A stretch of 54,147 nucleotides of DNA from a virus. Shown in pieces: positions 4,489-50,563 of the stretch. Below the pieces are notes generated by a model. The model was given only the letters and a program-made list of their open reading frames with translations, made no database searches and was not told the DNA's origin. The position numbers and the translations under genes are program-made. Each line of letters opens with the position of its first letter. Within the stretch, counting starts at the first letter, position 1. The DNA lies in IMG/VR virus record IMGVR_UViG_3300018080_000221, positions 1 to 54,147 of that record; one strand, written 5' to 3'.

Positions 4489-4504
4489 TCTTTAGCTTTT
4501 AGTG

Positions 4505-4554: not shown

Positions 4555-4576
4555 ATCACGAGAGGGGGATGGGGGA

Positions 4577-21503: not shown

Positions 21504-24039
21504 CGTATGCCTCCAGGTGGCCCCAATCTGGGCCTAGGTCTATGTCCACCTTCCATGGGACTTGGGGAAACCACTTCTCCCCAGTAGCCTTCATGATAGA
21601 CTGGACTTTTCTACCTACCTCCTCGACCTTGTCGTTCCTGACCTCCAAGAGGACGCTGTCGTGGATAGTAGCTACCATCTTGGCGTAGTCGATACCCTCA
21701 GCCTTTAGCCAGTCGCATACCGAGATAAAGGTCATCAAGGTAACGTCTGAGGCAGCCCCTTGGACCGGCATGTTCCCTGCGGCCTTACGGGCATCGTCTA
21801 GGTTATCGTTGGTGATGAGAGGGTAGCGACGCCTACGCTTGGTTACAGTCTCCACGTAGCCTCGCGTCCTCAGGGTCTTGAGCTGGCCCTGCTTCCACTC
21901 CTCCAAGGTAGTCATGAGCTTCTTATACCTGCGGACGAACTGCCTGGCTAGGGTCATCGACATCCCAGTCTCCATAGCGAAGGAATGCTCAGTACCTCCA
22001 TACAGGTAGGCAAAGTTGAACTTCTTGCAGTTGTTGCGCTCGTCCTTGGTATACTCCTCTCCGTACATAGCTACTGCTACTTCAGAGTGGAGGTCGCGAC
22101 CCTCCTGGTATACTTGCAAGAGGAATGGCTCTCCAGATAGGGCAGCGGCTACTCTCATCTCTGCCTGGGAGATGTCTACCTCCATAATCGACCATCCTTC
22201 AGGAGCTTTGCAGTAGGCCGCCCTGATATACTGCCCCCAGGTATCCCCCAGAGCCGAGCCTGTACCTGGCCTGGGGATAGTCTGGATGGCAGGGTCACGG
22301 AAGGATACCCGGCCAGTCTCTGTACCATACAAGAGGCAGTCGGGATGTATCTTCCCCTCAGGGTCGATCATACTAGCATTGGTCCTCTTACGGTAGAATA
22401 GGTTGTCGATGTAGGAGCTTTTCAGCTTCAGTAAGGACTTCAGCTGGTCGAACCCCTCCAACCACTTATAGGCTACAGAATCCTGGCGACCCCAGCCGGC
22501 CAGCTTCTGCCTGATCAGTAGCCTCGCCTCTGCGCAGGTCGTCTTTGGCTTTGCGTTCCTAACCCTGACCGTAGGCAGTGCGAAGTGGTCATACATGATC
22601 TTCTGAACCTGCATCCAGGAGTTGGGGTTGAATTCGTACCCGCACATCTCTTCAAGTTCCTCTTGCAGCTTGACTGCCCCATCGCCCATCTCCTCAGACA
22701 AGCGGTGAAGCTCGTCTACGTCGCAGTACAGGCCATAGAGTTCCATATCCACCATATGAGGCAAAGCCGCCATCAGTGGGTAGCGGTACGGCATCTCGAA
22801 CATATCATCTGCCTCTAGCTGCTCCTTGAGGATGAACCAGAGTCTCAAGTTATAGCAAACGTCCAGGACGTTATACTCCATCAGCTGGTCGGCTGGGACA
22901 CTGGAGTACATATCGTTCTTGCTCTTGAGGTACTTCTTGACCAGTTCTCCCTCATAGTCTCCGATGTCGAGATAGTTAGTCAGCAACGGCTTGAGCCCGT
23001 GGTACATGGTCTCGTCGATCAGGTAGTGAGCTACCAAGCTGTCGTCATCTGCTCTAGCCTGGACCCCCAACTGGTGCCTGAGATACCTGATGTCGAACTT
23101 GGCGTTATGCCCGACAAAGGTGATACCATTATCTGGAGCAAAGAGGCGGTTGAGTGCCTCGGCTGTCTCTGGTAGGTAGACCATCTCTGCAGGAATGACC
23201 CAGGCTCGGTTGACGTCGTAGGCAAAGGCCATACATAGTATCCTATGCTCCCAATAGACCAGCTGATCAGTCTCAAGGTCGAAGCAGATGGTGAGTCCCT
23301 CCCTCCCCTGCTTGAGCATCGCATTTACCCAGTAGTTGAGGTCGTCTATATCCTCGACTACGTGGTAATGAGGATACGGCAGGTCTAGTGGTCCTCCATT
23401 GGCCAGCTTCTGAACGTCGTGGACTAGCTCAGAGAAGTGGCCTCCTGTACGTAGGATATAGGCTGGGTGCCAGGTACATATGACCCCGTCGTGCCACTGC
23501 CCTCTGAGCGACCCCTGCAGGATACCTGTAAGGGCCTTACCTGCTACTGCTCCAGCTGCTAGGATTGGGATGCCCTCGGCCTGGTAAGGTGCCAGCTCTG
23601 CAAGGAGTCTTGGACGGCAGCACTGGGCAGCCCTCCAAGGTATCTTGTTGGCTGGTGGATGGCAGAGGGCTGTATTGGTAAAGTATAGGTCGTCACGGGT
23701 GAGGTCAGTTGCTCCTTCTAGGATAGCCGTCAGCAACTTACCGGAGTCCCCAATGAAGGGGACTCCTTGCTTGGCTTCATTCCTGCCTGGGGCCTCCCCG
23801 CAAACAACGCCTCTGCACACGCCCTTATTCGGGGGTGTGCCAGAGCCTTGAACCATCGGACGGTGGAGCAGTGGGCAATGTATGCACTGGGGCTTAGGCA
23901 ATTCAGTATCCTTCACGCCCAGGGCTATATGCTTGCGCTCTGCTGCTATCAAGTCCTCATATGATACCTTCAGTAGGTCTTTATGATGAATCTTTGGCAG
24001 GTCCACTGGCTCTACTAACTGCTTGGCCCTCTTAGCCAT
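21490..24039 (-). CDS. Family A DNA polymerase with an N-terminal uracil-DNA glycosylase domain
   Basis: 849 residues, three parts. Residues ~50-230 are a family 4 UDG-like domain: GEAPGRNEAKQGVPFIG, then TWHPAYILR. The iron-sulfur Cys pattern CIHC ... LC-x14-C is also present. Residues ~260-430 are a 3'-5' exonuclease (FDLETD, GHNAKFDIRYL, YNVLDVCYNL). Residues ~430-849 are the polymerase: motif A DISQAEMRVAA, motif B RNNCKKFNFAYLYGG, motif C TIHDSVLLE. The start at 24039 (MAKRAK) has a GAGAGGA ribosome site; the ORF extends 7 codons further. UDG fusions are known for SPO1-type polymerases; here all motifs look intact. It follows the DpdA-like gene with an 8-base overlap. Confidence 0.92.
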   Translation of the reverse strand: MAKRAKQLVEPVDLPKIHHKDLLKVSYEDLIAAERKHIALGVKDTELPKPQCIHCPLLHRPMVQGSGTPPNKGVCRGVVCGEAPGRNEAKQGVPFIGDSGKLLTAILEGATDLTRDDLYFTNTALCHPPANKIPWRAAQCCRPRLLAELAPYQAEGIPILAAGAVAGKALTGILQGSLRGQWHDGVICTWHPAYILRTGGHFSELVHDVQKLANGGPLDLPYPHYHVVEDIDDLNYWVNAMLKQGREGLTICFDLETDQLVYWEHRILCMAFAYDVNRAWVIPAEMVYLPETAEALNRLFAPDNGITFVGHNAKFDIRYLRHQLGVQARADDDSLVAHYLIDETMYHGLKPLLTNYLDIGDYEGELVKKYLKSKNDMYSSVPADQLMEYNVLDVCYNLRLWFILKEQLEADDMFEMPYRYPLMAALPHMVDMELYGLYCDVDELHRLSEEMGDGAVKLQEELEEMCGYEFNPNSWMQVQKIMYDHFALPTVRVRNAKPKTTCAEARLLIRQKLAGWGRQDSVAYKWLEGFDQLKSLLKLKSSYIDNLFYRKRTNASMIDPEGKIHPDCLLYGTETGRVSFRDPAIQTIPRPGTGSALGDTWGQYIRAAYCKAPEGWSIMEVDISQAEMRVAAALSGEPFLLQVYQEGRDLHSEVAVAMYGEEYTKDERNNCKKFNFAYLYGGTEHSFAMETGMSMTLARQFVRRYKKLMTTLEEWKQGQLKTLRTRGYVETVTKRRRRYPLITNDNLDDARKAAGNMPVQGAASDVTLMTFISVCDWLKAEGIDYAKMVATIHDSVLLEVRNDKVEEVGRKVQSIMKATGEKWFPQVPWKVDIDLGPDWGHLEAYDDKH
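23815..23840 (+). repeat. Dispersed palindrome copy G
   Basis: GCACACGCCC ... CGGGGGTGTGC, 26 bp, within the polymerase gene but oriented against its transcription. It encodes part of GSGTPPNKGVCRG in the UDG domain, just before the GEAPG motif. Confidence 0.75.
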
Positions 24040-24835
24040 GACCCATCCTCTCTCCCTCATTAGAGGCCATCTTGGTAGCTTTATGGTAAATGGCGAGATT
24101 GATCTCTGCCAGGGTCAAGGTCTCTTTGAGTAGGTAGCCCTCTGGACGCCAGGCATCCTCAGTCATATTGCACTTGCCTATCATCTCGGTATAGACCTGA
24201 CCCTGCAAGGCGGCCGCGTAGGGGCAGGTGGTATCCCAACTGCGGATATGTGGGAAGTAGCTGATCGCTTGGATAGGTTGGGACATAACCGACCATTGCC
24301 CTAGTAAGTGCAGCCTGGATGGATGCCCCATATAAGGAGTCAATCTGATGCAGTGCGTCCTGACCCATGAGAGGGCAGCGATGCGGCCTCCAGGGAACTT
24401 GTCTAGCACTTTAGGTATCCCAATGGTGAGCTGAGGGATACGCTCCCATAGGTCAGTACCCATCATCTGCCTCAGGCACTCCACCCACTCCTGTACAGAG
24501 CCTCCTTGCGGTACGACCATAACGCTATTGGCATAGGCAGACAGTTCCAGGGCATGGGCATGGAACAGCTTGAGGGTCTTGTCCTTATCCATAAAGGCGT
24601 CGGGGCAGACTACCTCAAATGGCTCGATAGCCTTGGCAACCTTGTAGAGGGTCTTGACCCTTGGCTCTCCAGTCTCTATGACCCCATTATCTAGGATGAC
24701 TCCGCTATGATCCCTGAACTGCTCCCATTCGTCCTCTGGCAGGTCGTTGAATAGGTGGGCTTGGAGCATAACGTATACCCCAGTGGCTAGATGCTTCACC
24801 ATCTTCAGTGGTAGTACGGGCGCAAATTCAGTCAC
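24032..24835 (-). CDS. dpdA: DpdA-like DNA 7-deazaguanine transglycosylase
   Basis: A 267-residue protein of the tRNA-guanine transglycosylase superfamily in its short DNA-acting form. Visible motifs: GVILDNGVIE (Asp49, TDSGG position), VCPDAFMDKD (Asp79), VVPQGGSVQEW (Gln110-Gly-Gly, VQGG position), and RLHLLGQ followed by HIRSWDTT, where Asp201 fits the catalytic nucleophile. The zinc cluster of tRNA enzymes is absent, as in DpdA proteins. It should exchange guanine in DNA for preQ0 or a derivative. GTG 24835 has AAAGGAGG upstream; the longer frame to 25249 is a shadow. Subtype not assigned. Confidence 0.75.
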   Translation of the reverse strand: MTEFAPVLPLKMVKHLATGVYVMLQAHLFNDLPEDEWEQFRDHSGVILDNGVIETGEPRVKTLYKVAKAIEPFEVVCPDAFMDKDKTLKLFHAHALELSAYANSVMVVPQGGSVQEWVECLRQMMGTDLWERIPQLTIGIPKVLDKFPGGRIAALSWVRTHCIRLTPYMGHPSRLHLLGQWSVMSQPIQAISYFPHIRSWDTTCPYAAALQGQVYTEMIGKCNMTEDAWRPEGYLLKETLTLAEINLAIYHKATKMASNEGERMGHG

Positions 24836-25262: not shown

Positions 25263-25689
25263 CTTGCAGTAACCTCCTGTATATACTAACTGACGGTAGT
25301 TGAAATGGTCGGTATACCTTATGAGTCCTCCTCTCTACCCTTACCCAGCTGCCTATAGTATCCCACCTCTTGGCAGTTGGGTAGTTTACTTCTGCCAAGA
25401 TATTGTTCTGGATCATCCACTGGTCGTCTGGCAAGCCTCCGGTGGTGAGGGTATGGTCTGCGCAATCGGCTACCAGGAAGTATTCCCACCTGCTATAGCC
25501 ATACGGGCGCAGTGCCCATATCTGGCCTATGTCTCGGCAATCGGCAGAGGCTATATAGCCATCGACCATAGGAGTTATTAGTGGGAGGTGGCCTGTCCTC
25601 ATACGGTTCAAGACCACCTCCTCCATCAGCCCTTCTCGGTAGTGACTAGCCCAGCCGTAGATGATCACCAGGGCAGCTAGGGCATTCAT
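25246..25689 (-). CDS. Secreted or membrane-anchored double-psi-barrel-like protein
   Basis: A 147-residue protein. The N-terminal ~12 residues are hydrophobic (ALAALVIIYGWA), followed by a small domain with GYIASADCRDIGQIW and FLVADCADH. The spaced Cys pair and the VADC-D strand resemble double-psi beta-barrel domains of the RlpA/3D group, which bind or cut peptidoglycan. It starts in ATGA overlap with queC and is otherwise out of place among DNA-modification genes. It might be the missing lysis enzyme, but the catalytic Asp is not certain. Confidence 0.4.
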   Translation of the reverse strand: MNALAALVIIYGWASHYREGLMEEVVLNRMRTGHLPLITPMVDGYIASADCRDIGQIWALRPYGYSRWEYFLVADCADHTLTTGGLPDDQWMIQNNILAEVNYPTAKRWDTIGSWVRVERRTHKVYRPFQLPSVSIYRRLLQDETVY

Positions 25690-26417
25690 TCTGCTTCGAT
25701 GTAGCCAGCATCTATGCAACGACTGACCACGCGCCTCATGCCATCGAGGTCATAGGCAGGGTCGTGCATGTCGTTGGCCCAGAATGCTGCGGCACGTAGG
25801 AGGCAACTATCGCACGTACCGCAAGCCTGCTCGTCGTTCCGGTAGCAACTACGCGTATGCTCCCAAGGAACACCCAGGTCTCTTCCAAGCTCGACAATCT
25901 CTGCCTTGGTCAAGGTTATGAGTGGATGAGCAATGGTAACCTCGAACCCTCCCAGTGCCAGGACTGCAGTATCGGCAAACGCCTCCAAGAAGTCCTGCCG
26001 GCAATCTGGGTATTCCACGTCTTGCTCAACCCACCCCCCGACCAGCATATGTGCGTCGTACTTGTAGAGTAGGGGGAGAGTCCTGGCCAGCTGGAAGAGG
26101 TTGCGTCCTGGTACGAAAGATGATGGGTTACCATACTTGTCAGTAACGCCAGGTCTCAAGTCCGTAACGTCGCTGGTGATAGCCTCTAGTCCATAGCCGT
26201 CAATCTTGATGGCCTGGAATGGGATGACGTGGCCTAGCTCGGATGCCAGAGAGCCCATCACCATTAACGCTGCGTTGGCCTCGTAGTCGGCTCCAAGCTG
26301 CCCATAGTCGAAGTGGGCAATCGCTACTACCTCTGTATTCGGACGTGCTGCTGCCCAGTATAGGGCCGTGGAGGAGTCCATTCCTCCACTAAGTAGAACC
26401 ACTGCTCTGTCCTTCAT
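25686..26417 (-). CDS. queC: 7-cyano-7-deazaguanine (preQ0) synthase QueC
   Basis: A 243-residue protein with the PP-loop SGGMDSS (residues 10-16) for ATP pyrophosphatase chemistry and the C-terminal zinc-binding CYRNDEQACGTCDSC. Both ends match QueC, which converts 7-carboxy-7-deazaguanine to preQ0 with ammonia and ATP. Together with FolE, QueD and QueE at 32.9-34.7 kb it completes the GTP-to-preQ0 route. It overlaps the HNH gene upstream by 29 bases. Confidence 0.93.
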   Translation of the reverse strand: MKDRAVVLLSGGMDSSTALYWAAARPNTEVVAIAHFDYGQLGADYEANAALMVMGSLASELGHVIPFQAIKIDGYGLEAITSDVTDLRPGVTDKYGNPSSFVPGRNLFQLARTLPLLYKYDAHMLVGGWVEQDVEYPDCRQDFLEAFADTAVLALGGFEVTIAHPLITLTKAEIVELGRDLGVPWEHTRSCYRNDEQACGTCDSCLLRAAAFWANDMHDPAYDLDGMRRVVSRCIDAGYIEAE

Positions 26418-27341: not shown

Positions 27342-29801
27342 CTACCCCCTTATCGTTAGCGTGAACTCTTTGGTGGTTATCTCTGATGGTATATCTAGCT
27401 CAGCATCGTAGGCAGCTTGTAAATCTATCCCATGGGCCCTGACCATCTTACCCTCTAGCTTCATTACCTGGGCTGGTAGGACAAACCTGGTCATCTCCTC
27501 TAGCATACTGACCATAGCTGCCTTACTGAGCGATGGTTGGCCCATCCTATGAGAGTGCGAGGCATAAGCATGGTAGGCTGGAGTGACGTGAAACCATAGG
27601 ACTCCATCCTTGAGCTTATAGGAAAAGTTAGCACTGCCCCTAGCAGCTATGTTAACTACGAACTCTACAAAGTCATCGGCTGCTACTGGCGCCCTACCTC
27701 TAGCCACGACGTATACATTCTCAAGGGCCTGCCTCATTACCTGTATAGGTGGTCTTGGCGTTCCTAAGAAATCGGCAAGGATATCAATCCCATACCAGGC
27801 TACTGCCAGGTTACGCCTGACCCTGTCTGGCATAGGATAGACGAATGCCTTATCTACCTCCTTCTGGGCGTCGATCAAACCCTCCCGCACACCCCCGATT
27901 TGGAGCGTGTGCAGTGCATATGGTAGAGATAGGCTATGGAGGTCTACCGCCGACAGCCGCTGGAACGCACGCCAGGCAGGTGAGTCCTTCATAACGGTAT
28001 CCTTCTTGAGGTGGACGGCTACAATACGCTCCTTTACTGCTGGGTCTTGGAGCTGATCCTCACCGTCTATGGAGAAGGGCGCAGTCAGTGGGTATTGGGT
28101 TATAGTCTGGTCTGGCCGTCCTCTGGCATCGACTCCACTATCGTAGCTGAGGAGGATGTACCTCAAGAACTCCTTAGTCATATTGGCCCTGAACTCGCTG
28201 AACGAGATGGGAGGGGCATTAGACGATCCCAGGAGGGACAGCAGTACGAACCTAGTCGTATTAGCGTCGTACCCCTTGGGGTCGGTATAGCCCGCCATCC
28301 TCAGGAAGATTCTCTGGATGAGCGTCGTCTTGCCGCTGCCCTTGGTACCAGAGACAGAGAGTATGGGAAAGCGGTAGCCTGCCTCCTCGATTGCCGGCTT
28401 CAGTGGAGTAGCAGCATACCATCCTATCATAGGCCAGATAGCATCTGGGTCGTGGAGATTGGGCAGGTTCTCCGCTATGACCTCCTTGACCTCTTGGGAT
28501 AGGTGACTATCTGTGATAGAGATGGATGGTAGGTTCTTGGTAGCTGGTACATACACTATCGGGGCACGACTGTCTCCCTTCCAGATAGACCCGTCAGAAC
28601 CTATGACCGCTTCCCTGGTTACATAGTAGGTACGGTCATCGTCTACTATCGAGTGCCGTCCCATGGTCCTGGTCGAGCGGGCCAGAGGTACTCCCTTGGC
28701 CTGTAGTTGCTGGATAAGGTAGGCTGACATCTGCCTGACATGAAGGTCTCGTCCAAGCCAGTTCCACGCAGCCTTATTCAGCCTGGGGGTGAGCTTACCA
28801 AGGGAGCTGAGCTCAGTCTTGGTAAAGACTTCCCCTTTCCAGACGTGCTTAGTACCGTTAGCCCTAACGTCTGCAACGATGGCATCTTCATCCCCTTCAA
28901 GGAGGAGGAGGGGGTCGAGCACGAACGTAGACACCTGGGCTGCTCCTCTACCGGAGGCCATGTAGTAGCAGTTATCCTTCTCAACGACTGGCCCTGGTCC
29001 TGCTTGGTCCTCTGAACCTCCATCGCCAGCCTTGGTCCTTATAGTAATGACCTCTGCTGAGGATTCCCTGGCAGAGGCTATAGTCTTATCTAGGTAGTGC
29101 CCCCGTTCTGATTGGTGCTTATCCCCGCACTTATGGCAGTCAAAGATGCGGGTAATGGACTCATCACTCATTCCTGCAGAGACCAAGGCAGTCACTATCG
29201 CCCAGTCTCTCTCCGACCTGGACGTATACCCCCTACGGTCACCGTTCCTCACTTTCCTGGCCATCTTGTCTGTTATGGCGAGGGAAGCATCCACGTCACC
29301 AAGGGAGTATACGTACTCAGGTCGTATAATATCAACAGACACCACTATAGGGGCATCTGATTCTTTCATATTCATTGAGCCTGGCAATCTCATCAGTCGG
29401 TCTATATTATGACAACTATCGCCCTTGACCGACTGGGCCAGGCTGGCATTACGTGTCTCTATCTCCTTACGTTCCGGTATGAAGGTATCTATCCTCCAGT
29501 ATAAGTGGTATCCGTGGCCAGATCGGACTATGGCCGACGGAGGTAATACAGCAGGTATCAAGTCTGGACGGTCCAAGTCTACCCAGAGAACCTGACTACC
29601 TAGGCAATTGGCCTTACCTATGGCATCTGCCTTAGCCCGTACTGCTGGACCAAAGTAGACGTCTAGCTGTTCAGGTATCTTTAGAGCATCTATGGCCCTG
29701 ATGGGTATCCACCTACGATGCTCCCTATCCGTGCCTCCAATACTCAGTTCTATGAGGTTGTCGTTGTTCAGTCCACTGAAGCATAAATTTAGGAGGTCCA
29801 T
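27342..29801 (-). CDS. AEP primase-helicase fusion
   Basis: 819 residues. The N-terminal ~250 residues carry archaeo-eukaryotic primase (prim-pol) motifs: VLWVDLDRPD (catalytic Asp pair), SGHGYHLYWR (His motif) and IDRLMRLPGSMNMK. A CHKCGDKH knuckle lies near residue 225. Around residue 480 the Walker A SGTKGSGKTTL begins a helicase domain like the SF3/D5 or RepA type, with a SFSEF Walker-B-like strand. It should prime and unwind at the replication fork together with the polymerase at 21.5-24 kb. The Walker spacing and domain order are typical of phage primase-helicases. Confidence 0.82.
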   Translation of the reverse strand: MDLLNLCFSGLNNDNLIELSIGGTDREHRRWIPIRAIDALKIPEQLDVYFGPAVRAKADAIGKANCLGSQVLWVDLDRPDLIPAVLPPSAIVRSGHGYHLYWRIDTFIPERKEIETRNASLAQSVKGDSCHNIDRLMRLPGSMNMKESDAPIVVSVDIIRPEYVYSLGDVDASLAITDKMARKVRNGDRRGYTSRSERDWAIVTALVSAGMSDESITRIFDCHKCGDKHQSERGHYLDKTIASARESSAEVITIRTKAGDGGSEDQAGPGPVVEKDNCYYMASGRGAAQVSTFVLDPLLLLEGDEDAIVADVRANGTKHVWKGEVFTKTELSSLGKLTPRLNKAAWNWLGRDLHVRQMSAYLIQQLQAKGVPLARSTRTMGRHSIVDDDRTYYVTREAVIGSDGSIWKGDSRAPIVYVPATKNLPSISITDSHLSQEVKEVIAENLPNLHDPDAIWPMIGWYAATPLKPAIEEAGYRFPILSVSGTKGSGKTTLIQRIFLRMAGYTDPKGYDANTTRFVLLSLLGSSNAPPISFSEFRANMTKEFLRYILLSYDSGVDARGRPDQTITQYPLTAPFSIDGEDQLQDPAVKERIVAVHLKKDTVMKDSPAWRAFQRLSAVDLHSLSLPYALHTLQIGGVREGLIDAQKEVDKAFVYPMPDRVRRNLAVAWYGIDILADFLGTPRPPIQVMRQALENVYVVARGRAPVAADDFVEFVVNIAARGSANFSYKLKDGVLWFHVTPAYHAYASHSHRMGQPSLSKAAMVSMLEEMTRFVLPAQVMKLEGKMVRAHGIDLQAAYDAELDIPSEITTKEFTLTIRG
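27887..27912 (-). repeat. Dispersed palindrome copy H
   Basis: On the minus strand GCACACGC ... TCGGGGGTGTGC, 26 bp, inside the primase-helicase gene, encoding LHTLQIGGVREG. Confidence 0.8.
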
Positions 29802-32745: not shown

Positions 32746-32919
32746 CTAGAACTTCAGATTGGCGCTGCGTTCAGCATCCTTCCGTTGGATGGTCTGGACT
32801 TTGACCTTCAGCATAGCTTTGGATACCGACTCTACAGTCCTGGTCCTGCCTCCTGGTAAGGTGATCTTGGCGCGGTGGACGCCGCGTTTCTCATCATACC
32901 AGTATCTTACACTGCCCAT
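32746..32919 (-). CDS. Small basic protein overlapping folE
   Basis: A 57-residue, Lys/Arg-rich protein (MGSVRYWYDEKRGVHRAKIT, then a TVESVSKAMLKVKVQ helix). The start overlaps the folE stop in ATGATG. AAGGAGG sits 6 bases before the second ATG (32919), which I choose; the first is at 32922. Its strand-turn-strand plus helix plan resembles small DNA-binding arms (AP2/integrase N-terminal style), but this is a weak resemblance. Confidence 0.5.
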   Translation of the reverse strand: MGSVRYWYDEKRGVHRAKITLPGGRTRTVESVSKAMLKVKVQTIQRKDAERSANLKF

Positions 32920-33518
32920 CATTTACCTCCTTCCTTAGCCAGGAACATAAATTCCTGGTATAGATAGGGATTACCAAGGAAGTAACCCCGCTTAACTGAC
33001 GTACCTAGGCTGCCCGTATTCTCGATACCACGGCACTGCATACAGGTATGCCGGCCAATGGCATAGGCTGCCACTGAGGACTGGCCCGTTATCTCTGCAA
33101 TCTCGTCTGCCACCTGATTGAGGAACCTCTCCTGTATCTGCAGACGGTGGGCATACTTATAGCAAACTCTGGCTACCTTGGATGCCCCCAGGTATTTATC
33201 CTTTACCTGATAGCCTACCACGACATCCATCGAGAACGGCAGTAGGTGATGCTCGCACATGGACCAGACGTCATTGACTCTGAGGACTACTAACTGACCC
33301 TGCCCCTTGGCCTCGAAGGTAGTACCTATCTTGCCAGGATCGTACTCAATAAAGGACTTCCAGAATCTAGCTACTCTGTCTGGGGTATCAACCAATCCCT
33401 CACGAGTGGGGTTCTCTCCTATGGCCCTGAGCAGGCGAGTCACCGAGATTCGGATCAAGTCCTCCTGCACACCCCCTGACTCGGCGTGTGCGGCTGCTGT
33501 CGTTTCTTCCTTCATCAT
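32919..33518 (-). CDS. folE: GTP cyclohydrolase I (FolE)
   Basis: A 199-residue protein with the full FolE signature: VWSMCEHHLLPF (zinc ligands Cys88 and His91), GASKVARVCYKYA and GRHTCMQCRGIE (third zinc Cys159). It opens the GTP ring to dihydroneopterin triphosphate, the first step to preQ0. It overlaps queE (ATGATG, 33515). Palindrome copy I lies in the 5' part of the gene, encoding AHAESGGVQED in a non-conserved N-terminal extension. Confidence 0.95.
   Translation of the reverse strand: MMKEETTAAAHAESGGVQEDLIRISVTRLLRAIGENPTREGLVDTPDRVARFWKSFIEYDPGKIGTTFEAKGQGQLVVLRVNDVWSMCEHHLLPFSMDVVVGYQVKDKYLGASKVARVCYKYAHRLQIQERFLNQVADEIAEITGQSSVAAYAIGRHTCMQCRGIENTGSLGTSVKRGYFLGNPYLYQEFMFLAKEGGK
33467..33491 (-). 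repeat. Dispersed palindrome copy I
   Basis: Minus strand GCACACGCC ... AGGGGGTGTGC, 25 bp, in the first 20 codons of folE. Confidence 0.8.
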
Positions 33519-34153
33519 TTCACCCCTATATACTTATGGACTTGGACCGACAGCCGGCAACCGAGTTGAAGGCATGCCTTGAAGGCCAGCTTGGTGGAGT
33601 GCTCCTCCTGGGAGATAGGCTGTAGGCAAACGCGCTGAGGGTCTATGTCGTGTAGGTTCATGAACGCCTTCAGCCTGGCTATAGAGGGCATCCCACCCAC
33701 CAGCCACTTGATCTCGTCTGCCCCCTCAACGACGTTCTTCAGGTAGCTACCCTCAGGGAGCATATGCTTGGGGCTTACCACGATATGGTCGATTAGGTGT
33801 GCCCCTGGGATAGGTAGGCTACCATTGGTCTCCAGATGGATGCATGGAATGGGATGGCTCAACTGGATGAGCGCCTCTAGCAGGGCCTCCAGGGGTTGTA
33901 GGCACGGCTCGCCTCCGGTCAGTACCAGGAGGTCGTTGGCATGGGCAGTCTGCTGGATAGCCTTAACCAGTCGATTCAGGGTATAGGTCGTACCCCCTTC
34001 AAGGCCGATGGACCCCTTGGTATCGCAGAAGCCGCAGTCGAGATTGCACCCCTGGAACCTGACGAAGGTAGCAGGCCAGCCAGAGAAGCGTCCTTCTCCC
34101 TGGATAGACCGGAAGATAGAGTGTACTAGGTAGGTTGGCTTAGACTTCGACAC
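33515..34153 (-). CDS. queE: 7-carboxy-7-deazaguanine synthase (QueE), radical SAM
   Basis: A 212-residue protein with FRSIQGEGRFSG at the N-terminus and the radical-SAM cluster motif CNLDCGFC (Cys36, Cys40, Cys43), then VLTGGEP (about residue 79) for SAM binding. These are QueE hallmarks. It makes the 7-deazaguanine ring from carboxytetrahydropterin. It starts at GTG and overlaps queD by 14 bases and folE by 4. Confidence 0.93.
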   Translation of the reverse strand: MSKSKPTYLVHSIFRSIQGEGRFSGWPATFVRFQGCNLDCGFCDTKGSIGLEGGTTYTLNRLVKAIQQTAHANDLLVLTGGEPCLQPLEALLEALIQLSHPIPCIHLETNGSLPIPGAHLIDHIVVSPKHMLPEGSYLKNVVEGADEIKWLVGGMPSIARLKAFMNLHDIDPQRVCLQPISQEEHSTKLAFKACLQLGCRLSVQVHKYIGVK

Positions 34154-34679
34154 TGCATCCTCCTAAGCCCTCCCATAGAGTGACGTTTACTATCTCTACT
34201 CTGGGCAGCTCCTCTATCTTCTGCTGAAGGTACAGAGCAATATTCTCTGCAGTTGGCAGTGGAATGAAGTCATTGAGCCAGGAGTGGTCCAAGTCGTCGA
34301 TGATCTCCTTGATATCGCCAAAGTCCACTACCACGCCGTCGGCCTCGTTGACATGCCCCAACATCTCTACCTTGACTCGGTAAGAATGCCCATGAGGATT
34401 ACTACACTTACCTGGATGGCACGGCAAGTAGTGTCCGGCCTCGAAGGTACGCTCCACCGTCAGCCATGCATGGCGCTTCGGCCCTGAGGGGTTGGTACGG
34501 CAACGGACTCCCCTAACGGCCTCACCCCTGAGGTGAGGCTCTCCTGGGATGTCCACATCTGCCATCGCTTCTCGGCACTCCGCCTCTGCGGCCAGGAGTT
34601 CTTGTAAGTCTGTTATCTGCTTGAGAGCCTCAATCTTGCTCACTTGGTTACCCTTGCCTACATCTGCGTCGTGCATCAT
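34140..34679 (-). CDS. queD: 6-carboxytetrahydropterin synthase (QueD)
   Basis: A 179-residue protein. The QueD core starts near residue 72: FEAGHYLPCHPGKCSNPHGH gives zinc His83, His96 and His98 with catalytic Cys92, followed by VVDFGDIK, LDHSWLND and PTAENIA. The core matches a normal ~120-residue QueD. The first ~65 residues are an additional helical region not usual in the family, which may be real or reflect a later start. It overlaps the helicase gene at the ATGATG start. Confidence 0.93.
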   Translation of the reverse strand: MMHDADVGKGNQVSKIEALKQITDLQELLAAEAECREAMADVDIPGEPHLRGEAVRGVRCRTNPSGPKRHAWLTVERTFEAGHYLPCHPGKCSNPHGHSYRVKVEMLGHVNEADGVVVDFGDIKEIIDDLDHSWLNDFIPLPTAENIALYLQQKIEELPRVEIVNVTLWEGLGGCSVEV

Positions 34680-41911: not shown

Positions 41912-43112
41912 TCGGGTACTCCCATACGTGGCGGATAGCACGCTCGCCAGAGGGGGCATCCTGCCAGGCTTCGAAGTCCTCTGATAACCAATTGGTGAAG
42001 GTACCACGCTCTGGGTGGACGATGGTGACCTGGTCATGCAGGTACAGCCATGCACTGACGCCGTTGTACTCAGCCTCGATAGCCGCGATATACTCCTCAA
42101 CCTTAGAGGGCATCTTCTCGTAGGTAGTGCGCAGGTGGAGCAGTGCCTCGCAGCGGACGTCGATATATTCCTTGATGTACCACTGGAGGTCCTCTAGTAC
42201 CTGCGCTTCGTAGGCAGCGATCTGCTCGGCAGAGAGTGGGCGGAGGTCGTTAGGCCAGGCGGTAAAGTTCTCTGCCCAGCAAGACGCCCCGTCCAGGTGC
42301 TCAGCCTCCTCGATGTACTCGTCTACTAGGTCAGGGTTATCTAGGAACGCGTCTGACGAGTAGATAGTACGGTAAGCCAGGTCTCTGGCACGGAGCTGGT
42401 CGTGGGTGAGTTCTACATGGATACGCCCAAAGATGATGGCCTCGATAAGGTCGGGTAAGGACTCTATACAGATACCCAGGTCGTCGTTATGGAAGCAGGC
42501 GCATGCCCCTCGGTGCTGGATATGCAATCGGCTACCATCGAGGTCGTATACCATAGCGCAGGGCATCTCTACCTCGTCAGGCGACTGCTCAGGGTAGTGG
42601 GTGGTAATCGGTGCCCACACCGGCTGGTAGTTAGGATCGAAGTCGACAGGGTTAAGGGTCAGGCTGTCCAAGATCGTTGGCGGGATACCATACTCGGACG
42701 TATAGTCAGGAGCAGTCGGGTCGTTAGGGCCAGGACTAAAGCCTGTGGCAGGGTCGAACCCCCAGGGAACCCCTTCACGAAGGGAGGCACAGCCCCAAGA
42801 ATCAGGGGTGTGCAGGGGAGGGGGTAAGTCCTCGTTGCCTGCCCCCAGTGTAGAGGAGGATGGCTGGACACGGTCCTCTTCAGGGACGCTGGGCAGCTCG
42901 CCTGGTAGATAGGCCAGGAGGGAGTCGATAAGTTGGGTAGCGATACGGTTCCTGGCTGCGCAGAGGCGCAAGTCGTCTTTGTCGGTCAGGTCGGGGTCGC
43001 CGTATGATAGGTTGGTGGCCTCCTCTGCCTGCTTAACAACGTCCGGGGAGGCTGCTAGGGCGGATACGGCGGCTTCCTTGCTAGTGGTTAGGAGATACGT
43101 TAGGAGGTGCAT
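41904..43112 (-). CDS. Unknown acidic protein
   Basis: A 402-residue protein with a good ribosome site (AAAGGAAC). The N-terminal part is helical; residues ~85-170 are Pro/Asp-rich and disordered-looking; the C-terminal part is helical and acidic. HRGACACFHNDDLGIC (about 200) holds clustered Cys/His. Palindrome copy K encodes LHTPDSWGCASL. It is the first gene after promoter P1 and the AT-rich region. No family recognised. Confidence 0.6.
   Translation of the reverse strand: MHLLTYLLTTSKEAAVSALAASPDVVKQAEEATNLSYGDPDLTDKDDLRLCAARNRIATQLIDSLLAYLPGELPSVPEEDRVQPSSSTLGAGNEDLPPPLHTPDSWGCASLREGVPWGFDPATGFSPGPNDPTAPDYTSEYGIPPTILDSLTLNPVDFDPNYQPVWAPITTHYPEQSPDEVEMPCAMVYDLDGSRLHIQHRGACACFHNDDLGICIESLPDLIEAIIFGRIHVELTHDQLRARDLAYRTIYSSDAFLDNPDLVDEYIEEAEHLDGASCWAENFTAWPNDLRPLSAEQIAAYEAQVLEDLQWYIKEYIDVRCEALLHLRTTYEKMPSKVEEYIAAIEAEYNGVSAWLYLHDQVTIVHPERGTFTNWLSEDFEAWQDAPSGERAIRHVWEYPND
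42787..42813 (-). repeat. Dispersed palindrome copy K
   Basis: Minus strand GCACACCCC ... TTGGGGCTGTGC, 27 bp, inside the gene at 41904. Confidence 0.75.
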
Positions 43113-43218
43113 AGCAGTTCCTTTCTAGTAGTCTGGTGCCTAAGCTGGATTAGGCGTTTATGGGTAGTCAGCTAGGGAGCTAGCCTGTTAAGGTCTCGCT
43201 CCGGTTTTTCTCCCTTCT

Positions 43219-43248
43219 AGTTTACTATAACAGGCTGGCTTTAGTAAA
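43219..43248 (-). promoter_or_regulatory. Promoter P1 (leftward)
   Basis: TTTACT (43243-43248), 18-base spacer with CAGCCTG, then TAAACT (43219-43224); TATAGT at 43224-43229 is an alternative -10. It lies 107 bases upstream of the gene at 41904, with two small hairpins in the leader. Confidence 0.65.
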
Positions 43249-43917
43249 GTCCCCCCAGTAGGGCCAAACGCCCTGGCAAGTAGGAAAGGGGGAGAGGACG
43301 GCTGTTATGGTAGACGGCTGATAAGGTAGTAGATGGTCATACTTTTAGTTTTTAGAAACTAAAACAGGTCGTTACTTTTTAGTTACTAAAAACTAAGTCA
43401 TGGCCTGAAATGGGGTATAATCCATAAAGATAATGCTATAAAAGCGGTCTGCGAGTAGTTTATTTTTATAGTTTACTTTATAGTTTATTTGAATGTAGAT
43501 TGATTTGTTTAGGGTTAGTTTAGGTAGTATTGCCCTCCTTATCTATATAAATAATAAATAATTATAAAATAATTATTATTATATTTTTTATAGCTACTAT
43601 TAGATGAACCAAAAGGAGAAGAAATTAAAATTCAATTAAATTAAAATATATATAGAGCTATACCGACCCCCCTTGGAGCGTTATTTTGCTATGGTTTATA
43701 GTTTATAGCGATAAGTACGATGGTTTAGATAGGTCGTTTGATATAGGTCGGTGCGTAAGGTAGAGTATAAACTATAAACTATATAAATAAAAGAACCCCC
43801 TACCCTATAGATAGGGCAGGGGGAGCAGTAGAGCTGATATAGCCATCGGTGATCGCCAGCCTGACTGGTTAGGCAACGACCCCTAGCTGGTCGGGCCAGC
43901 GGTCGGGCGGGCGGTGG
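43249..43917. other. AT-rich non-coding region, replication-origin candidate
   Basis: No gene is seen for about 670 bases. Features: palindrome TTTTAGTTT/AAACTAAAA (43343-43364), palindrome TTTTTAGT-T-ACTAAAAA (43376-43392), and repeated TATAGTTTAT-type units in both directions (43464-43482, 43690-43706, 43766-43783). An almost pure A/T tract runs through 43541-43600. It is by far the most AT-rich part of the genome, suiting easy melting and initiator binding. Confidence 0.5.
43784..43823 (-). terminator. Rho-independent terminator (leftward)
   Basis: On the minus strand CCCCCT-G-CCCTA, TCTA loop, TAGGG-T-AGGGGG, then TTCTTTTATTT. It follows the gene at 43918 and shields the AT-rich region from its transcription. 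Confidence 0.8.
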
Positions 43918-44502
43918 TTAGAAATCCAAATCCAGGTCGATGTCCTCTTCAGCCACCTCGGTCAGGTCTTTGGCCTTAGCTGGGGTGGAGGCTTTCTTCT
44001 TCTTGTATGCAGGCTCGAAGGAGAACTCATTCTCCGTCAGGTCTGTCGGGGCCTTGTCTGGGTAGAACCCAGCGACTGCGGCCTGGATAGCGACAGAGAG
44101 GGCGTCGGCATCGACAACGGCAGAGTCGAATCTGACCAGGTATCGGCGCAGGCCCAAGCGTGTGGTGGTGCGCGTCTGGTACCCCTCCACGAACACGGGG
44201 TTGATCAGCCAGACCTCGTAGGACTTCATCTGGACCTTATTGCAGATAGGCTCTTGCTGGTTGGTTGCCGGGTTCAGGATGGTCTTGTCCCTGTTCTTGC
44301 GCACGAGCTGCCGAACATACTGGCTGTGCTTCAGGCCCATCGCAGGCGTGGCGTCGTTAATCTTGTACCAGTCGCAATACGGCTTCTGGAGTTCAGGGTA
44401 ACGTGCCCCTGGGTTAGGCGGGGCTGGCTTGGCCTGCTTGGCCTGCTTGGTCTGCTTGGCTGGTTTAGCTGCCTTGGTGGGTGTTGCCTGTTTCTTTGCC
44501 AT
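43918..44502 (-). CDS. Basic/acidic two-part protein with an SSB-like acidic tail
   Basis: A 194-residue protein. The N-terminal ~35 residues are Lys/Ala/Pro-rich repeats (KPAKQTKQAKQAKP); the core (about 40-155) is mixed; the C-terminus is EEDIDLDLDF, an acidic tail ending in Phe as in phage single-strand-binding proteins. The core and tail align with the protein at 47074, which also ends in Phe. The ribosome site is AGGAGG, and a long structured leader and promoter P4 lie upstream. DNA binding is inferred. Confidence 0.6.
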   Translation of the reverse strand: MAKKQATPTKAAKPAKQTKQAKQAKPAPPNPGARYPELQKPYCDWYKINDATPAMGLKHSQYVRQLVRKNRDKTILNPATNQQEPICNKVQMKSYEVWLINPVFVEGYQTRTTTRLGLRRYLVRFDSAVVDADALSVAIQAAVAGFYPDKAPTDLTENEFSFEPAYKKKKASTPAKAKDLTEVAEEDIDLDLDF

Positions 44503-46301: not shown

Positions 46302-46331
46302 ATTATACTACGACAGGCTGCTCTTAGTAAA
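46302..46331 (-). promoter_or_regulatory. Promoter P3 (leftward)
   Basis: TTTACT (46326-46331), 18-base spacer with CAGCCTG, consensus TATAAT (46302-46307). It drives the genes at 45846 and beyond. Confidence 0.8.
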
Positions 46332-46581: not shown

Positions 46582-46791
46582 CTACCGACGTCGCCTGGTT
46601 CGCCAGCGACGGCGGAGATGGTCCCATCCCTCGTCGGCTAGCTTATAGATAACCAGGGCAAGTACTACTGCTACCCATAGGGGGATAGTTACGTTACCAG
46701 ACCAGCTCCCCAGGCGCACGCCCAGGGTAAAGCTCCCCAGGCTATTAAGGAAGGATACTACTTCCTTAACTATACCGATAAACTTATCCAT
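46582..46791 (-). CDS. Small membrane protein with a very basic tail
   Basis: A 69-residue protein with one clear hydrophobic helix (about 35-50) and an Arg-rich C-terminus (RRRWRTRRRR). Start ATG 46791 overlaps the previous stop (TAATG) and has AGGAGG upstream. The layout fits a small inner-membrane or holin-like protein. Confidence 0.55.
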   Translation of the reverse strand: MDKFIGIVKEVVSFLNSLGSFTLGVRLGSWSGNVTIPLWVAVVLALVIYKLADEGWDHLRRRWRTRRRR

Positions 46792-46931
46792 TACCTATAC
46801 CTCCTAGCAGCCTGCTTAAGCATTCTCGCTCGCATATTCGCTCGACCAGCAGCCGCGAGTAGGGCAGCAGCCTTAGCCTTACGTGCTTCCTTAGTTAACC
46901 TTACGACCTTAGCCTTCCTTAGCATTATCAT
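46791..46931 (-). CDS. 46-residue very basic peptide
   Basis: MIMLRKAKVVRLTKEARKAK, then an Ala/Arg-rich helix. AAAGGAG lies 6 bases upstream of ATG 46931, and translation continues to the next gene through TAATG. Below usual ORF cutoffs, but well supported by ribosome sites on both sides. Likely nucleic-acid binding by charge. Confidence 0.55.
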   Translation of the reverse strand: MIMLRKAKVVRLTKEARKAKAAALLAAAGRANMRARMLKQAARRYR

Positions 46932-46976
46932 CTTTTTCTCCTTTACCCCTAGAGTAGGGGAGTATAGTAATTACGT

Positions 46977-47073
46977 TCTCTGCCCCCTAAAGGCGGGCGC
47001 TAGAGTAGGGGTTTACCTACCCCTTAGCGTATCCGCCTATAGGGGGATATTTAGTTTTGGTAGGGGGCAGAGA
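46977..47073 (-). ncRNA. Nested inverted repeat, candidate structured RNA
   Basis: A perfect 13-bp closing stem (46977-46989 with 47061-47073, TCTCTGCCCCCTA type) encloses AGGCGG/CCGCCT (46991-46996, 47033-47038), CGCTA/TAGCG (46998-47002, 47025-47029) and AGGGG/CCCCT (47007-47011, 47020-47024), all coaxial. It starts exactly at the stop of the gene at 47074 and ends before the ribosome site of the next gene. Confidence 0.55.
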
Positions 47074-47547
47074 CTAGAATTCGATGCCCGTAATCTCTAA
47101 CTCCGACGGTTCTTTAGGGGCACGTTTCTTAGCTCCCTTTTTAGCCTTATACGCTTCCTCTAGGGTATACTCGATGTCGAGGGCGTCGAGTGCCTCCTTA
47201 ACCTTCTCGAAGTTTTCGATAGGGGTTCTAAGGAGGAAGCGGCGCATACCCGTACGTACCGATTTATTCTCCTTATAGTAGGTAATCGAGGGCACGTAGA
47301 CGTACCACTTTTCGAGCTTCCCGATAAGGAGTTTAACTCCCTCGATTTTGCCCTCTTTTAGAAGCCTAGAAGCGTACATCGGGTACTTAACTTCTAGAAG
47401 GGGGCAGCTATCCTTAATCGAGACGAATACTTTAGGGTCGCGGATATTCTTAGGGGTAAGTTTACCCTTCCAGTAATCCTTAACCTTAGCATTCTCCTTA
47501 CGAGTAGAGAAGCCGATAACCTTAACCGAAACCTTTTTAGTCGCCAT
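47074..47547 (-). CDS. Paralogue of the SSB-like protein at 43918
   Basis: A 157-residue, Lys-rich protein without any Gln or His. LEKWYVYVPSITYYKENKSV followed by RTGMRRFLLRTPIENFEKVKEAL (positions ~79-120) aligns with YEVWLINPVFVEGYQTRTTT and GLRRYLVRFDS of the 43918 protein. The KK-rich stretch and an acidic end with terminal Phe also match. AAAGGAG precedes ATG. Codon use avoids TG and CA dinucleotides. DNA binding is inferred. Confidence 0.6.
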   Translation of the reverse strand: MATKKVSVKVIGFSTRKENAKVKDYWKGKLTPKNIRDPKVFVSIKDSCPLLEVKYPMYASRLLKEGKIEGVKLLIGKLEKWYVYVPSITYYKENKSVRTGMRRFLLRTPIENFEKVKEALDALDIEYTLEEAYKAKKGAKKRAPKEPSELEITGIEF

Positions 47548-47613
47548 TCTTACTATTCTCCTTTTCCCCTTAAGGGGATATACTAGACTTTAGATTAGGT
47601 TTATAAGTCTAGC

Positions 47614-47642
47614 CTTAGAGCTATACTAGGGTATAGCCCTAA
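47614..47642 (-). other. Intergenic hairpin
   Basis: GCTATAC-TAGG-GTATAGC with flanking TTAG/CTAA, just after the stop of the gene at 47650. A second dyad, CTAGACTT/AAGTCTAG, lies beside it. They may stabilise or end the upstream transcript. Confidence 0.45.
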
Positions 47643-47649
47643 AGTTAGG

Positions 47650-47913
47650 TTATAATACCTCCGTTATATTCTCGATAATATTCCTACTCCTATCGTCTAC
47701 TCTCCTAAGAGATACCGAGTAGGGGAGGGGTAACTTAGCTTCTAGCTCTAGGGCCTTACCGTAAGCGGTATAGGCTTTATAGCTATCGTTGCTCTCTCTA
47801 TAGGGGAAGCCTTCCTTAAGAACTACTAAGGTATACTCTCTCTCCCTCTTAGCCTTATCGCTATCTCTACCGGGAACGAATTCTACTTCTAAGGTAAACT
47901 CGAAGCCTAGCAT
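47650..47913 (-). CDS. Unknown small protein in the TpG/CpA desert
   Basis: An 87-residue protein, first gene after promoter P5, with TAGGAG upstream of ATG. Rich in Glu, Lys, Leu and Tyr; contains no Gln, His, Cys or Trp, all of which need CA or TG in their codons. Strand-rich N-terminus (FEFTLEVEFVPG). Function unknown; likely very early expressed. Confidence 0.6.
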   Translation of the reverse strand: MLGFEFTLEVEFVPGRDSDKAKREREYTLVVLKEGFPYRESNDSYKAYTAYGKALELEAKLPLPYSVSLRRVDDRSRNIIENITEVL

Positions 47914-47997
47914 TCTCTCTCTCCTATTCTAGGGGGAGTAGCTCTCCCTCTTAGTTATTAGTTAGTATCTCGTTTCTTAATCCTTAACTCTAAATCT

Positions 47998-48026
47998 ATT
48001 ATACTCTATTTCTCTCTAAAAGTAAA
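47998..48026 (-). promoter_or_regulatory. Promoter P5 (leftward, probably earliest)
   Basis: TTTACT (48021-48026), 17-base spacer, TATAAT (47998-48003). Unlike P1-P3 it lacks CAGCCTG, so it may be active without phage control. First promoter of the leftward arm. Confidence 0.75.
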
Positions 48027-48174
48027 GACCTAATTAGTCGAGTTTAGGAGTTTAGTATACCCCTCGTGAAGTTTTACGTAACTTGGTGATATAACCCTGA
48101 GGCTCACCTTTCTCATACCAGGAGTACCCGATAGAAGTATGGCCAGTAGCATAACTCACCCATATGAAGGAGGC

Positions 48175-48248: not shown

Positions 48249-48431
48249 ATGCTGAACTTAAACGTACTTGACCAACCAGGGGAGAGGGTAACCCTAATAA
48301 CCAAGACAAAGATAGTCATTGCGACGGTTACGGAGCCAGACACGGCCAACGACCTGGAGTTACACACTCCAGGTTCGGGGCTGTGCATCGGCTTGAGAAT
48401 TGAGCAGGTGAGGGATCGTGAGCTGGAATGA
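48249..48431 (+). CDS. CsrA-like small protein (tentative)
   Basis: A 60-residue protein. The beginning (MLNLNVLDQPGERVTLIT, then KIVIATVTE) and end (GLCIGLRIEQVRDRELE) follow the order of CsrA: ML-L-R-x-GE at the N-terminus and V-R-x-EL near the C-terminus. The middle is altered by palindrome copy B, which encodes ELHTPGSGLC. Only a weak G-rich ribosome site. If real, it could control translation of the structural arm. Confidence 0.4.
   Translation: MLNLNVLDQPGERVTLITKTKIVIATVTEPDTANDLELHTPGSGLCIGLRIEQVRDRELE
48362..48386 (+). repeat. Dispersed palindrome copy B
   Basis: ACACACTCC ... TTCGGGGCTGTGC, 25 bp, in the CsrA-like gene, 32 bases before the small terminase start. Confidence 0.75.
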
Positions 48432-49089
48432 CGAAGACACGGTGGTGCCAGTCGTCGTAGATGGCGAGGTAGTCCCAGCCGTTCCCTTTGGTGGCCCCAT
48501 CACGTTCGTACCTGAGAGGGACATTTGGGAGAGGCATCCAGACGAGAGCGACCAGCAATGGGCCTACTTCCAGCAATACAGGGATATGACCGCCTACGAC
48601 CGGAGCATTGGAGCTGTTGCCGAGCACTTTGAGGGCCACGTCGTTGGTAACCTCCGCGAGATTTTTCACCGCTTCAGGTGGCGTGAGAGGGTAGCAGAGT
48701 ATGATCGCTACCAGGACAGCCACTTCAGAGAGGCGTTATTGGCAGAACGTATACGTACCAGGAAAGGTATGGCTGGCTTGGGATCAGTGATGCGCAAGAA
48801 GGCAGCCAACGCGCTCAAGCATGTGAAGGAGACCCTGGAGACTACTACCGTAGACCCAGAGACTGGAGAGGTTCACAAGGAGGTCAAGACCGTTCTCACT
48901 GTGAAGGAGATACTAGACCTGGCTAAGGTGGGAGCTGACCTGGAGACTACCGCCCTCGACATGAAGGGGGAGCCCATCGTAGCACGGCAGATTAACATGT
49001 ACATAAACGACAGCGACGAGGAGATACTGGAGGCTGCTAGGGAGCTGCTCAGGATCAAGGGAGCGAAAGTGATCGACCATGAGGACTGA
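48418..49089 (+). CDS. Terminase small subunit
   Basis: A 223-residue protein starting at GTG. Residues ~45-105 (SDQQWAYFQQYRDM, RSIGAVAEHF, LREIFHRFRWRERVAEYDRY) match the N-terminal DNA-binding region of small terminases; a coiled coil and an acidic C-terminus follow. It overlaps the CsrA-like gene by 14 bases and the large subunit gene by 11. It selects the packaging site, usually in or near its own gene. Confidence 0.8.
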   Translation: MSWNDEDTVVPVVVDGEVVPAVPFGGPITFVPERDIWERHPDESDQQWAYFQQYRDMTAYDRSIGAVAEHFEGHVVGNLREIFHRFRWRERVAEYDRYQDSHFREALLAERIRTRKGMAGLGSVMRKKAANALKHVKETLETTTVDPETGEVHKEVKTVLTVKEILDLAKVGADLETTALDMKGEPIVARQINMYINDSDEEILEAARELLRIKGAKVIDHED

Positions 49090-50563
49090 GGAGAGAGAAG
49101 CCCTCATCAAGCTGCTGGAGCAGGACCCAGTATGGTGGATGGAGAGGAACTTCTGGATACCAGACAGGCGCGACCCTATGACGGGGGAGGAGCTGGGGCC
49201 AGGGCCGATCATACTCCATCCTATCCAGAAGCGCATCCTGAGAGCTGTACTTATCAAGGGCGATGGGGGCAGATTTCCCTACTCGACCATGCTCTATAGT
49301 ACCATCAAGAAGTCGGGTAAGACCAGGATAGGAGCGGGAGTAGCTGCATGGTTTGCGGCCACCCAGGGCAGGTATAACGAGGTCTATTGCTTGGCTAACG
49401 ATGGTAAGCAGAGTTCTGACCGTATCCTATCAGCCATCAAGCAGTGCGTGACGTTGAATACTAATATGGATTGGAACGTCACCAAGACCAAGATCACGTT
49501 GCCTAATGGCACGTACATAGAGGCCATCCCTTGCGACCCCAAAGGCTCTGCAGGGGCTAACCCAGGATTGACTGTCTGGTCTGAGATGTGGGGATATGCC
49601 CACCAGCATAAGGAGCGTTTGTGGACTGAGATGACTATTCCGCCTACCAGATTTGGTAAGGCGATGCGGTGGGTAGAGTCCTATGCAGGGTACAAGGATG
49701 AGTCGGCAGTACTCTACTCCCTGTACGAGCAGGGCACGGAGCATGGTAGAAGGCATCCAGAGTTTAGCGGTCCAGACGACCCTCCATGCTACACCAACGA
49801 GGCCGCTAACATGTTCTGCTATTGGGACGATGGAGATGCGGCACGAAGGATGCCCTGGCAGACAGACGACTATTATGCCCAGGAACGGAGTCAGCTAGTT
49901 GCTAGCGAGTTTGACCGTATCCATCGCAACTTTTGGATAGACTCTGTGGATAAGGCCATCGACTTGGCTTGGTGGGATGCGTGTAAGGAGGACGTGCCAG
50001 CACTGGACCATCGCACTCCGGTAGTGATGGCAGTAGACGCCTCAGTGAGCCACGACTCAACTGCGGCCTGCTTGGTCAGTAGGCATCCAGACCCGCAGAG
50101 GAGGAACAAGGAGACTATGATCCGTAAGGTCAGGGCATGGTATCCTTCGCCTGGAGAGAAGATAGACCTGACAACAACGTTGGAAGCGTGTATATTGGAC
50201 TGGTCCGAGAGGTATAATATAGTCTGCTTGGTCTATGATAAGTACCAACTCCATAAGATGATGATGGATATCAGGAAGGAAGGTATCGTCAGGGTAAGGG
50301 AGTTTGGGCAGCAGGTAGACCGTTCAGTAGCAGACCGGCAGATATTGGACCAGATACTCACCAGGATGATAGCCCATGACGGTAACCAGGAACTGAGGGA
50401 GCACGTAGATGCCGCAGCTACCAAGATCACTGGAGACAATAAGATGCGTTTTGTGAAGGCGTCTGATCAGAAGGACGCCCAAGGGCGCACGGCCAAGCCT
50501 ATAGACCTATTAGTTTGCGCTTCCATGGGTAACCATGAGTGCCTGAGGTTGAACCTAGCATGA
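49079..50563 (+). CDS. terL: Terminase large subunit
   Basis: A 494-residue protein. ATPase: STIKKSGKTRIG (Walker A, residues 74-85) and LTVWSE (Walker B with catalytic Glu, about 163-168). Nuclease: VVMAVDASVSHDSTAA (first Asp, about 317), LVYDKYQL (second Asp, about 385) and a C-terminal acidic segment. It pumps DNA into the prohead. It ends in ATGA overlap with the portal gene. Confidence 0.93.
   Translation: MRTEEREALIKLLEQDPVWWMERNFWIPDRRDPMTGEELGPGPIILHPIQKRILRAVLIKGDGGRFPYSTMLYSTIKKSGKTRIGAGVAAWFAATQGRYNEVYCLANDGKQSSDRILSAIKQCVTLNTNMDWNVTKTKITLPNGTYIEAIPCDPKGSAGANPGLTVWSEMWGYAHQHKERLWTEMTIPPTRFGKAMRWVESYAGYKDESAVLYSLYEQGTEHGRRHPEFSGPDDPPCYTNEAANMFCYWDDGDAARRMPWQTDDYYAQERSQLVASEFDRIHRNFWIDSVDKAIDLAWWDACKEDVPALDHRTPVVMAVDASVSHDSTAACLVSRHPDPQRRNKETMIRKVRAWYPSPGEKIDLTTTLEACILDWSERYNIVCLVYDKYQLHKMMMDIRKEGIVRVREFGQQVDRSVADRQILDQILTRMIAHDGNQELREHVDAAATKITGDNKMRFVKASDQKDAQGRTAKPIDLLVCASMGNHECLRLNLA

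Follow-up and report, generated by a model that had tools for sequence, protein, structure and literature searches.

Known targets of DpdA and similar enzymes are short words of 2-3 bases. The DpdA enzyme of phage CAjan targets GA and GGC, as cited in PMC8306585, and modification of up to 27% of G has been reported for phage 9g (PMC6884629). CmoX of cyanophage S-B43 has a GC target that was found by experiment (PMC12783734), and the thymine-modified phages M6, ViI, and W-14 have TG/TC targets (PMC6449724). Published work (PMC6884629) considers that these bases could interfere with sigma or transcription factors, but argues that promoters of the housekeeping sigma factor, being AT-rich, need not be blocked.

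We analyzed a stretch of viral DNA of 54,147 nucleotides (IMGVR_UViG_3300018080_000221), hereafter called the window. Its contig probably represents a complete circular assembly, as it carries a 123-bp direct terminal repeat. The window, a metagenomic contig, resembles CAjan and 9g (PMC6884629, PMC8306585) in gene content: it encodes FolE, QueD, QueE, and QueC, together with a predicted transglycosylase that has the TGT/DpdA fold. Its DpdA differs from those of CAjan and 9g in being short and diverged, and is related to those of Weizmannia phage Youna2, Cellulophaga phage phiST, and a further viral record, G018. CmoX of S-B43 and the modifications of M6, ViI, and W-14 share with our proposal for the window a target of dinucleotide scale, TG among them, but the chemistry differs. 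Neither CAjan nor 9g yielded a strong early unit devoid of target words, whereas the window contains a stretch beside the terminase genes that is nearly free of TG and CA. Selection against a short word is familiar from restriction-site avoidance in phage genomes. The avoidance described here differs from it in being local and promoter-anchored, and the inferred target is that of the phage's own modification, not the site of a host enzyme. The features discussed below are summarized in Table 1.

Table 1 Positions of the analyzed features in the window.
Feature	Position	Strand	Evidence or remark
DpdA-like DNA-guanine transglycosylase (putative), GTG start, 267 aa	24032..24835	-	profile, fold match, QueC context of relatives
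QueC	25686..26417	-	Pfam match over cut-off
FolE (GTP cyclohydrolase I)	32919..33518	-	Pfam match over cut-off
QueE (radical SAM)	33515..34153	-	radical SAM match over cut-off; best NCBIfam family QueE
QueD (PTPS family)	34140..34679	-	Pfam match over cut-off
Paralogue of the 157-aa ORF, internal control	43918..44502	-	not depleted, z +2.6
Next promoter, TTTACT-N18-TATAAT	46302..46331	-	7 TG/CA in -65 to +1
Small ORF, end of shoulder	46582..46791	-	shuffle z -2.8
Graded shoulder of the desert	46600..47548		obs/exp about 0.2 rising to 0.6; counts, distance profile
Small ORF within shoulder	46791..46931	-	shuffle z -3.0
Second ORF, 157 aa	47074..47547	-	TG/CA 13 vs 45.3 in synonymous shuffles; depleted homologue in relative
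TG/CA desert (1 TG, 1 CA)	47549..48065		recount, word scan, distance profile
First ORF, 87 aa	47650..47913	-	no M/W/C/H/Q after start; TG/CA 2 vs 25.5 in synonymous shuffles
First sigma70-like promoter P5, TTTACT-N17-TATAAT	47998..48026	-	no TG/CA back to about -76; same promoter in relative
Terminase small subunit (TerS)	48418..49089	+	divergent from desert unit
Terminase large subunit (TerL)	49079..50563	+	query that found the relative

A promoter-anchored TG/CA desert

A sequence-only reading of the window had counted one TG and one CA in the desert. Our recount was identical, with the TG at 47790 and the CA at 47911, against about 60 sites expected for the desert and about 59 per 500 bp predicted from local composition. 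The CA, which that reading had assigned to a start codon, is part of the ATG of the minus-strand 87-aa ORF; the nearest flanking sites are at 47545, where the following gene has its start codon, and at 48067. The observed/expected ratio (obs/exp) of TG/CA in 500-bp windows had a genome mean of 1.06 (sd 0.18) and a minimum of 0.03 in the desert. All reverse-complement-collapsed 2- and 3-mers were scanned in 400-bp and 700-bp windows. The log10 Poisson P of the TG/CA deficit was -17.8 at 400 bp, -26.4 at 700 bp, and -32.6 at 1 kb, and the runner-up dinucleotide of the same genome reached -4.0 at 700 bp. The deficit was specific to TG/CA: CG, GA, and the other dinucleotides were approximately normal, and TA was high (81, where base counts predict about 45). 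The earlier reading had allowed for similar deserts arising by chance; the dinucleotide scan revealed no similar one, and a chance origin is excluded.

The desert contains P5, as had been noted, and its predicted transcription start lies near 47991. Relative to this start, obs/exp was 1.18, 0.84, and 0.80 in the intervals upstream of -80, 0.11 from -80 to -1, and 0.06, 0.05, and 0.06 from 0 to +450. Beyond +450 it rose through 0.23, 0.22, 0.40, and 0.57 to 0.88, which bears out the gradual fade described before. Depletion thus sets in sharply at about -80, amounts to approximately 95% across the initial 450 bp, and has faded by about +1.5 kb. The desert is anchored on the promoter and strand-symmetric. 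The region from -80 to -1 is not transcribed from P5, indicating that the constraint acts on DNA.

The promoters downstream of P5 contain TG/CA. They recur on the minus strand at 46331, 44777, 43248, and 37410. Those at 46331, 43248, and 37410 have in common a spacer element, CAGCCTGT. It brings a TG to the position immediately before the -10 and is absent from the first promoter.

The sequence-only reading had also noted that the two desert genes use no Gln or His codons, which is correct, and had argued against a protein-level effect. We examined this by synonymous shuffling, in which the amino acids were fixed and the codons redrawn from genome usage (5000 shuffles). The z-scores were -7.4 for the 157-aa ORF, -6.5 for the 87-aa ORF, and -4.6 for a homologue of the former in the relative G001 (24 vs 44.7 TG/CA); the observed count of each was reached in 0 of 5000 shuffles. 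Paralogues outside the unit were undepleted both in the window (Table 1) and in G001 (14070-14576, z +2.9). A protein-level effect is ruled out by the shuffles together with the undepleted paralogue control, and the avoidance of TG/CA works at the nucleotide level. The residues M, W, C, H, and Q (start excluded), which force one of the two dinucleotides, were also scarce, 5 in 244 codons vs about 31 expected. Searches of Pfam and PHROGs returned no function for either the 87-aa or the 157-aa ORF. The residual TG sites favor TGC in the window (16/23, p 2e-5) and TGA in G001 (22/45, p 3e-5); this bias could reflect a different flanking preference of the enzyme and is a lead only.

Conservation in a relative

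The earlier reading had named normal TG/CA frequencies in the homologous genes of relatives as evidence against it. The relative G001 (IMGVR_UViG_3300024265_000157, partial), whose TerL is 78% identical to that of the window and whose other proteins are mostly 35-75% identical, was depleted as well. The promoter matching P5 is located at 8899 on the plus strand (TTTACT-N17-TATACT). From its start, obs/exp was 1.24, 0.91, and 1.17 upstream of -80, 0.11 from -80 to -1, and then 0.24, 0.80, 0.27, 0.23, 0.65, and 1.1. The homologue of the 157-aa ORF (9025-9432, 48% amino acid identity) lies in the depleted part. In both phages TG/CA drops abruptly at -80 of the homologous promoter, and the depletion then fades over the following 1.0-1.5 kb; the step coincides with the upstream edge of a polymerase footprint, and the fade runs with transcription. 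The -35 of the early promoter is TTTACT in both phages, and that of four later G001 promoters is TTGACT, with a TG within the -35. Thus, the avoidance is conserved at the homologous promoter of a relative, and the desert is a real, highly non-random, and conserved feature.

CpG in the depleted stretch of G001 was raised to an obs/exp of about 1.2-1.4 vs about 0.5 elsewhere, and TpA was raised too. As both words are raised, avoidance is favored over a single mutational route. No further relatives were found in IMG/VR with the 157-aa protein, TerL, capsid, or portal, or among genome contigs with the portal, and G001 is the only relative found with a TG desert.

Modification genes and deserts in other phages

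FolE, QueD, QueE, and QueC, as assigned from family matches, make up a complete preQ0 pathway. The DpdA-like ORF adjoins the DNA polymerase gene. Its relatives sit in the preQ0 clusters of Youna2 and phiST, and among viral contigs 13 of 18 relatives were in records with QueC. With a profile of 14 sequences, the top PDB sequence match was the DNA-guanine transglycosylase DpdA 7ui4 (E 0.0026). An AF2 model (pLDDT 78.6) aligned best with tRNA-guanine transglycosylases (TGT; Z 15.2, 232 residues, rmsd 3.5), and 7ui4 was also among its Foldseek matches. On this profile and model evidence, we take the product to be a short, diverged DpdA with the corresponding predicted activity. The phage therefore probably replaces some guanines by a bulky variant, as judged from its gene content.

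Thymine modification at TG, of the M6 type, was also considered. No match to the thymidylate-synthase family (PF00303; dUMP hydroxymethylase), which is present in M6, ViI, and W-14, was found in the window or in the partial G001. Modification by the known thymine route to TG is therefore unlikely, and this candidate was disfavored. The neighboring gene at 21490-24060 encodes a DNA polymerase A with an N-terminal uracil-DNA-glycosylase (UDG) domain; its homologue in G018 likewise adjoins the DpdA-like gene.

We scanned 34 phage records jointly for deserts, using dinucleotides only and 700-bp windows. TG/CA in the window ranked first (-26.4), followed by TG/CA in G001 (-12.7), GC in G018 (-9.5), and GC in S-B43 (-9.0); the fifth value was -7.5, for TA in a terminal stretch of phiST, and most records gave -2 to -5. 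Both ends of the phiST record (1-720 and 78561-79114) are poor in TA and AT.

G018 (IMGVR_UViG_3300025528_000009) has QueC, QueE, FolE, the UDG-PolA homologue, and DpdA (about 27% identical) in common with the window. The layout is also the same, with terminase genes and early genes pointing away from each other. Its GC desert holds 5 GC dinucleotides in 783 bp (16889 to 17671). It extends from about -104 to +680 of a rightward sigma70-like promoter, TTGATT-N17-TATATT, beside the terminase genes, and spans this promoter and two small ORFs with synonymous-shuffle z-scores of -2.5 and -3.2. Another DpdA/QueC phage thus has a desert in the corresponding position, though of another word that contains G, which supports the explanation preferred below. 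G021, a phage close to G018 (DpdA 60% identical), has no GC desert; as it also lacks that early unit, it offers no conservation test of the G018 desert.

The 1211 bp of S-B43 (MN018232) from 192573 to 193784 lack any GC, its experimentally found motif. Most of this stretch is an HNH endonuclease insert of about 1 kb that is missing from RN05-S and common to RB11-B, S-H68, and S-B05; S-B43 was therefore discounted as independent confirmation. RN05-S and S-CRM01, which carry CmoX homologues and for which a GC motif was assumed from these, had no strong desert. No desert was found in Youna2 and BSP7, which have related DpdA-like genes, and none comparable in M6, ViI, and W-14. For GA and GGC, the genome-wide low of CAjan was no more than a weak dip in non-coding DNA (50001-50400), and the same held for 9g (27801-28200). 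Other weak genome-wide lows were that of GC in MaInes (ON529866, 20350-20850), beside a TTGACA/TATAAT promoter, and that of TG+TC in M6 (3200-3600). We did not rely on any of these lows. The pattern is strong in one lineage and probable in a second, and is no general rule.

Explanations of the desert

The explanation that we prefer, to which we give about an even chance, is that the phage modifies its own DNA bases and keeps its first (immediate-early) transcription unit, the desert, clear of the sites at which it does so. Because TG/CA is the word avoided there, we tentatively infer TG as the target. DpdA would exchange the G of TpG on both strands for a 7-deazaguanine; modification directed to TpG would cover about 24% of G, near the level of up to 27% in 9g. 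Modified G in a promoter or template would slow or block the host RNA polymerase. On freshly injected, fully modified DNA, the target-free unit alone would be read well, and its products would start the infection. Later promoters that bear TG would be read once replication has supplied copies that are still unmodified, or by an altered polymerase. As a block near the promoter would silence everything downstream, selection should peak at the promoter and weaken farther along the unit, and this polarity would produce the fade. The sequence-only reading had offered DNA free of a targeted dinucleotide, as a base-modification or nuclease site. Its first form fits the predicted preQ0 pathway and DpdA-like enzyme, the promoter anchoring, the strand symmetry, and the recurrence in a relative, with TG as the putative modified site.

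The P5 locus may be a case in which the polymerase-blocking problem was solved by sequence. It bears on how the unmodified host polymerase reads the first genes of heavily modified viral DNA; a target-free first unit, if true, would be a simple answer, and modification motifs would be readable from sequence alone. More tentatively, and with rather less confidence, we suggest that genome-wide modification serves as a timing switch, whereby injected DNA would be muted except for the target-free immediate-early unit and the rest would open only on new, unmodified copies; G018, with GC, would be a second case. No earlier description of an early unit lacking its target emerged from a literature search of partial coverage. 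Counting against the preferred explanation are that only one relative is known to have the TG desert, the lack of a GC desert in G021, the weak lows of CAjan and 9g, the lack of comparable deserts in M6, ViI, W-14, Youna2, and BSP7, the different residual contexts tolerated in the window (TGC) and G001 (TGA), and the published argument on housekeeping promoters (PMC6884629).

Host defense could also favor such a stretch, if a nuclease, a CRISPR motif, or a modification-dependent enzyme struck the TG-containing DNA that enters first and the leading end avoided the target. In its favor are the strand symmetry of the desert, its position next to the terminase genes, and the greater steepness of one edge, as would be expected of the end entering first. 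However, TG/CA is normal in the other 53 kb, and a clean stretch of 0.5-1.5 kb would not save the genome, so that the nuclease form of the earlier proposal did not hold up well. The sharp edge lies in both phages at the upstream limit of the RNA polymerase footprint and not at a known genome end, and the terminal repeat of the contig indicates a circular assembly. We consider host defense unlikely.

An element unrelated to transcription, such as a replication origin or packaging site that needs unmodified DNA for protein binding, would suit the position of the desert next to TerS, where early and late genes diverge. In addition, a weaker, AT-rich region with inverted repeats and few TG/CA (43.1-43.9 kb) is matched by one in G001. 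Yet the desert crosses two coding genes and weakens away from the promoter, and no iterated origin-type repeats stand out inside it, making this reading improbable as well.

We regard as quite improbable a mutational process that erased TG/CA, such as RIP-like C-to-T change in CpA where the DNA is often single-stranded or heavily transcribed. The high TA in the window desert is what CA to TA and TG to TA changes would produce, but the raised CpG in G001 is not a C-to-T product, the ORFs have remained open yet avoid amino acids that require TG/CA, and the edge at -80 lies upstream of the transcription start. A recent import of foreign DNA of different composition, the other possibility raised from the sequence, can look alike, as the S-B43 insert illustrates, but is refuted for this phage by the depletion of G001 at the homologous promoter and gene, there with CpG raised, and is a very remote prospect given also the graded fade and intact promoter, unlike an insert edge, and donor searches that found none.

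The stretch at 43100-43900 is AT-rich, non-coding, and TG/CA-poor (about 0.4-0.6), with long inverted repeats, and its G001 counterpart at about 15200-15700 is also TG/CA-poor; it is possibly an origin or control region. The structural module includes, at 4502-9350, genes for two sulfotransferases, one methyltransferase, and two glycosyltransferases.
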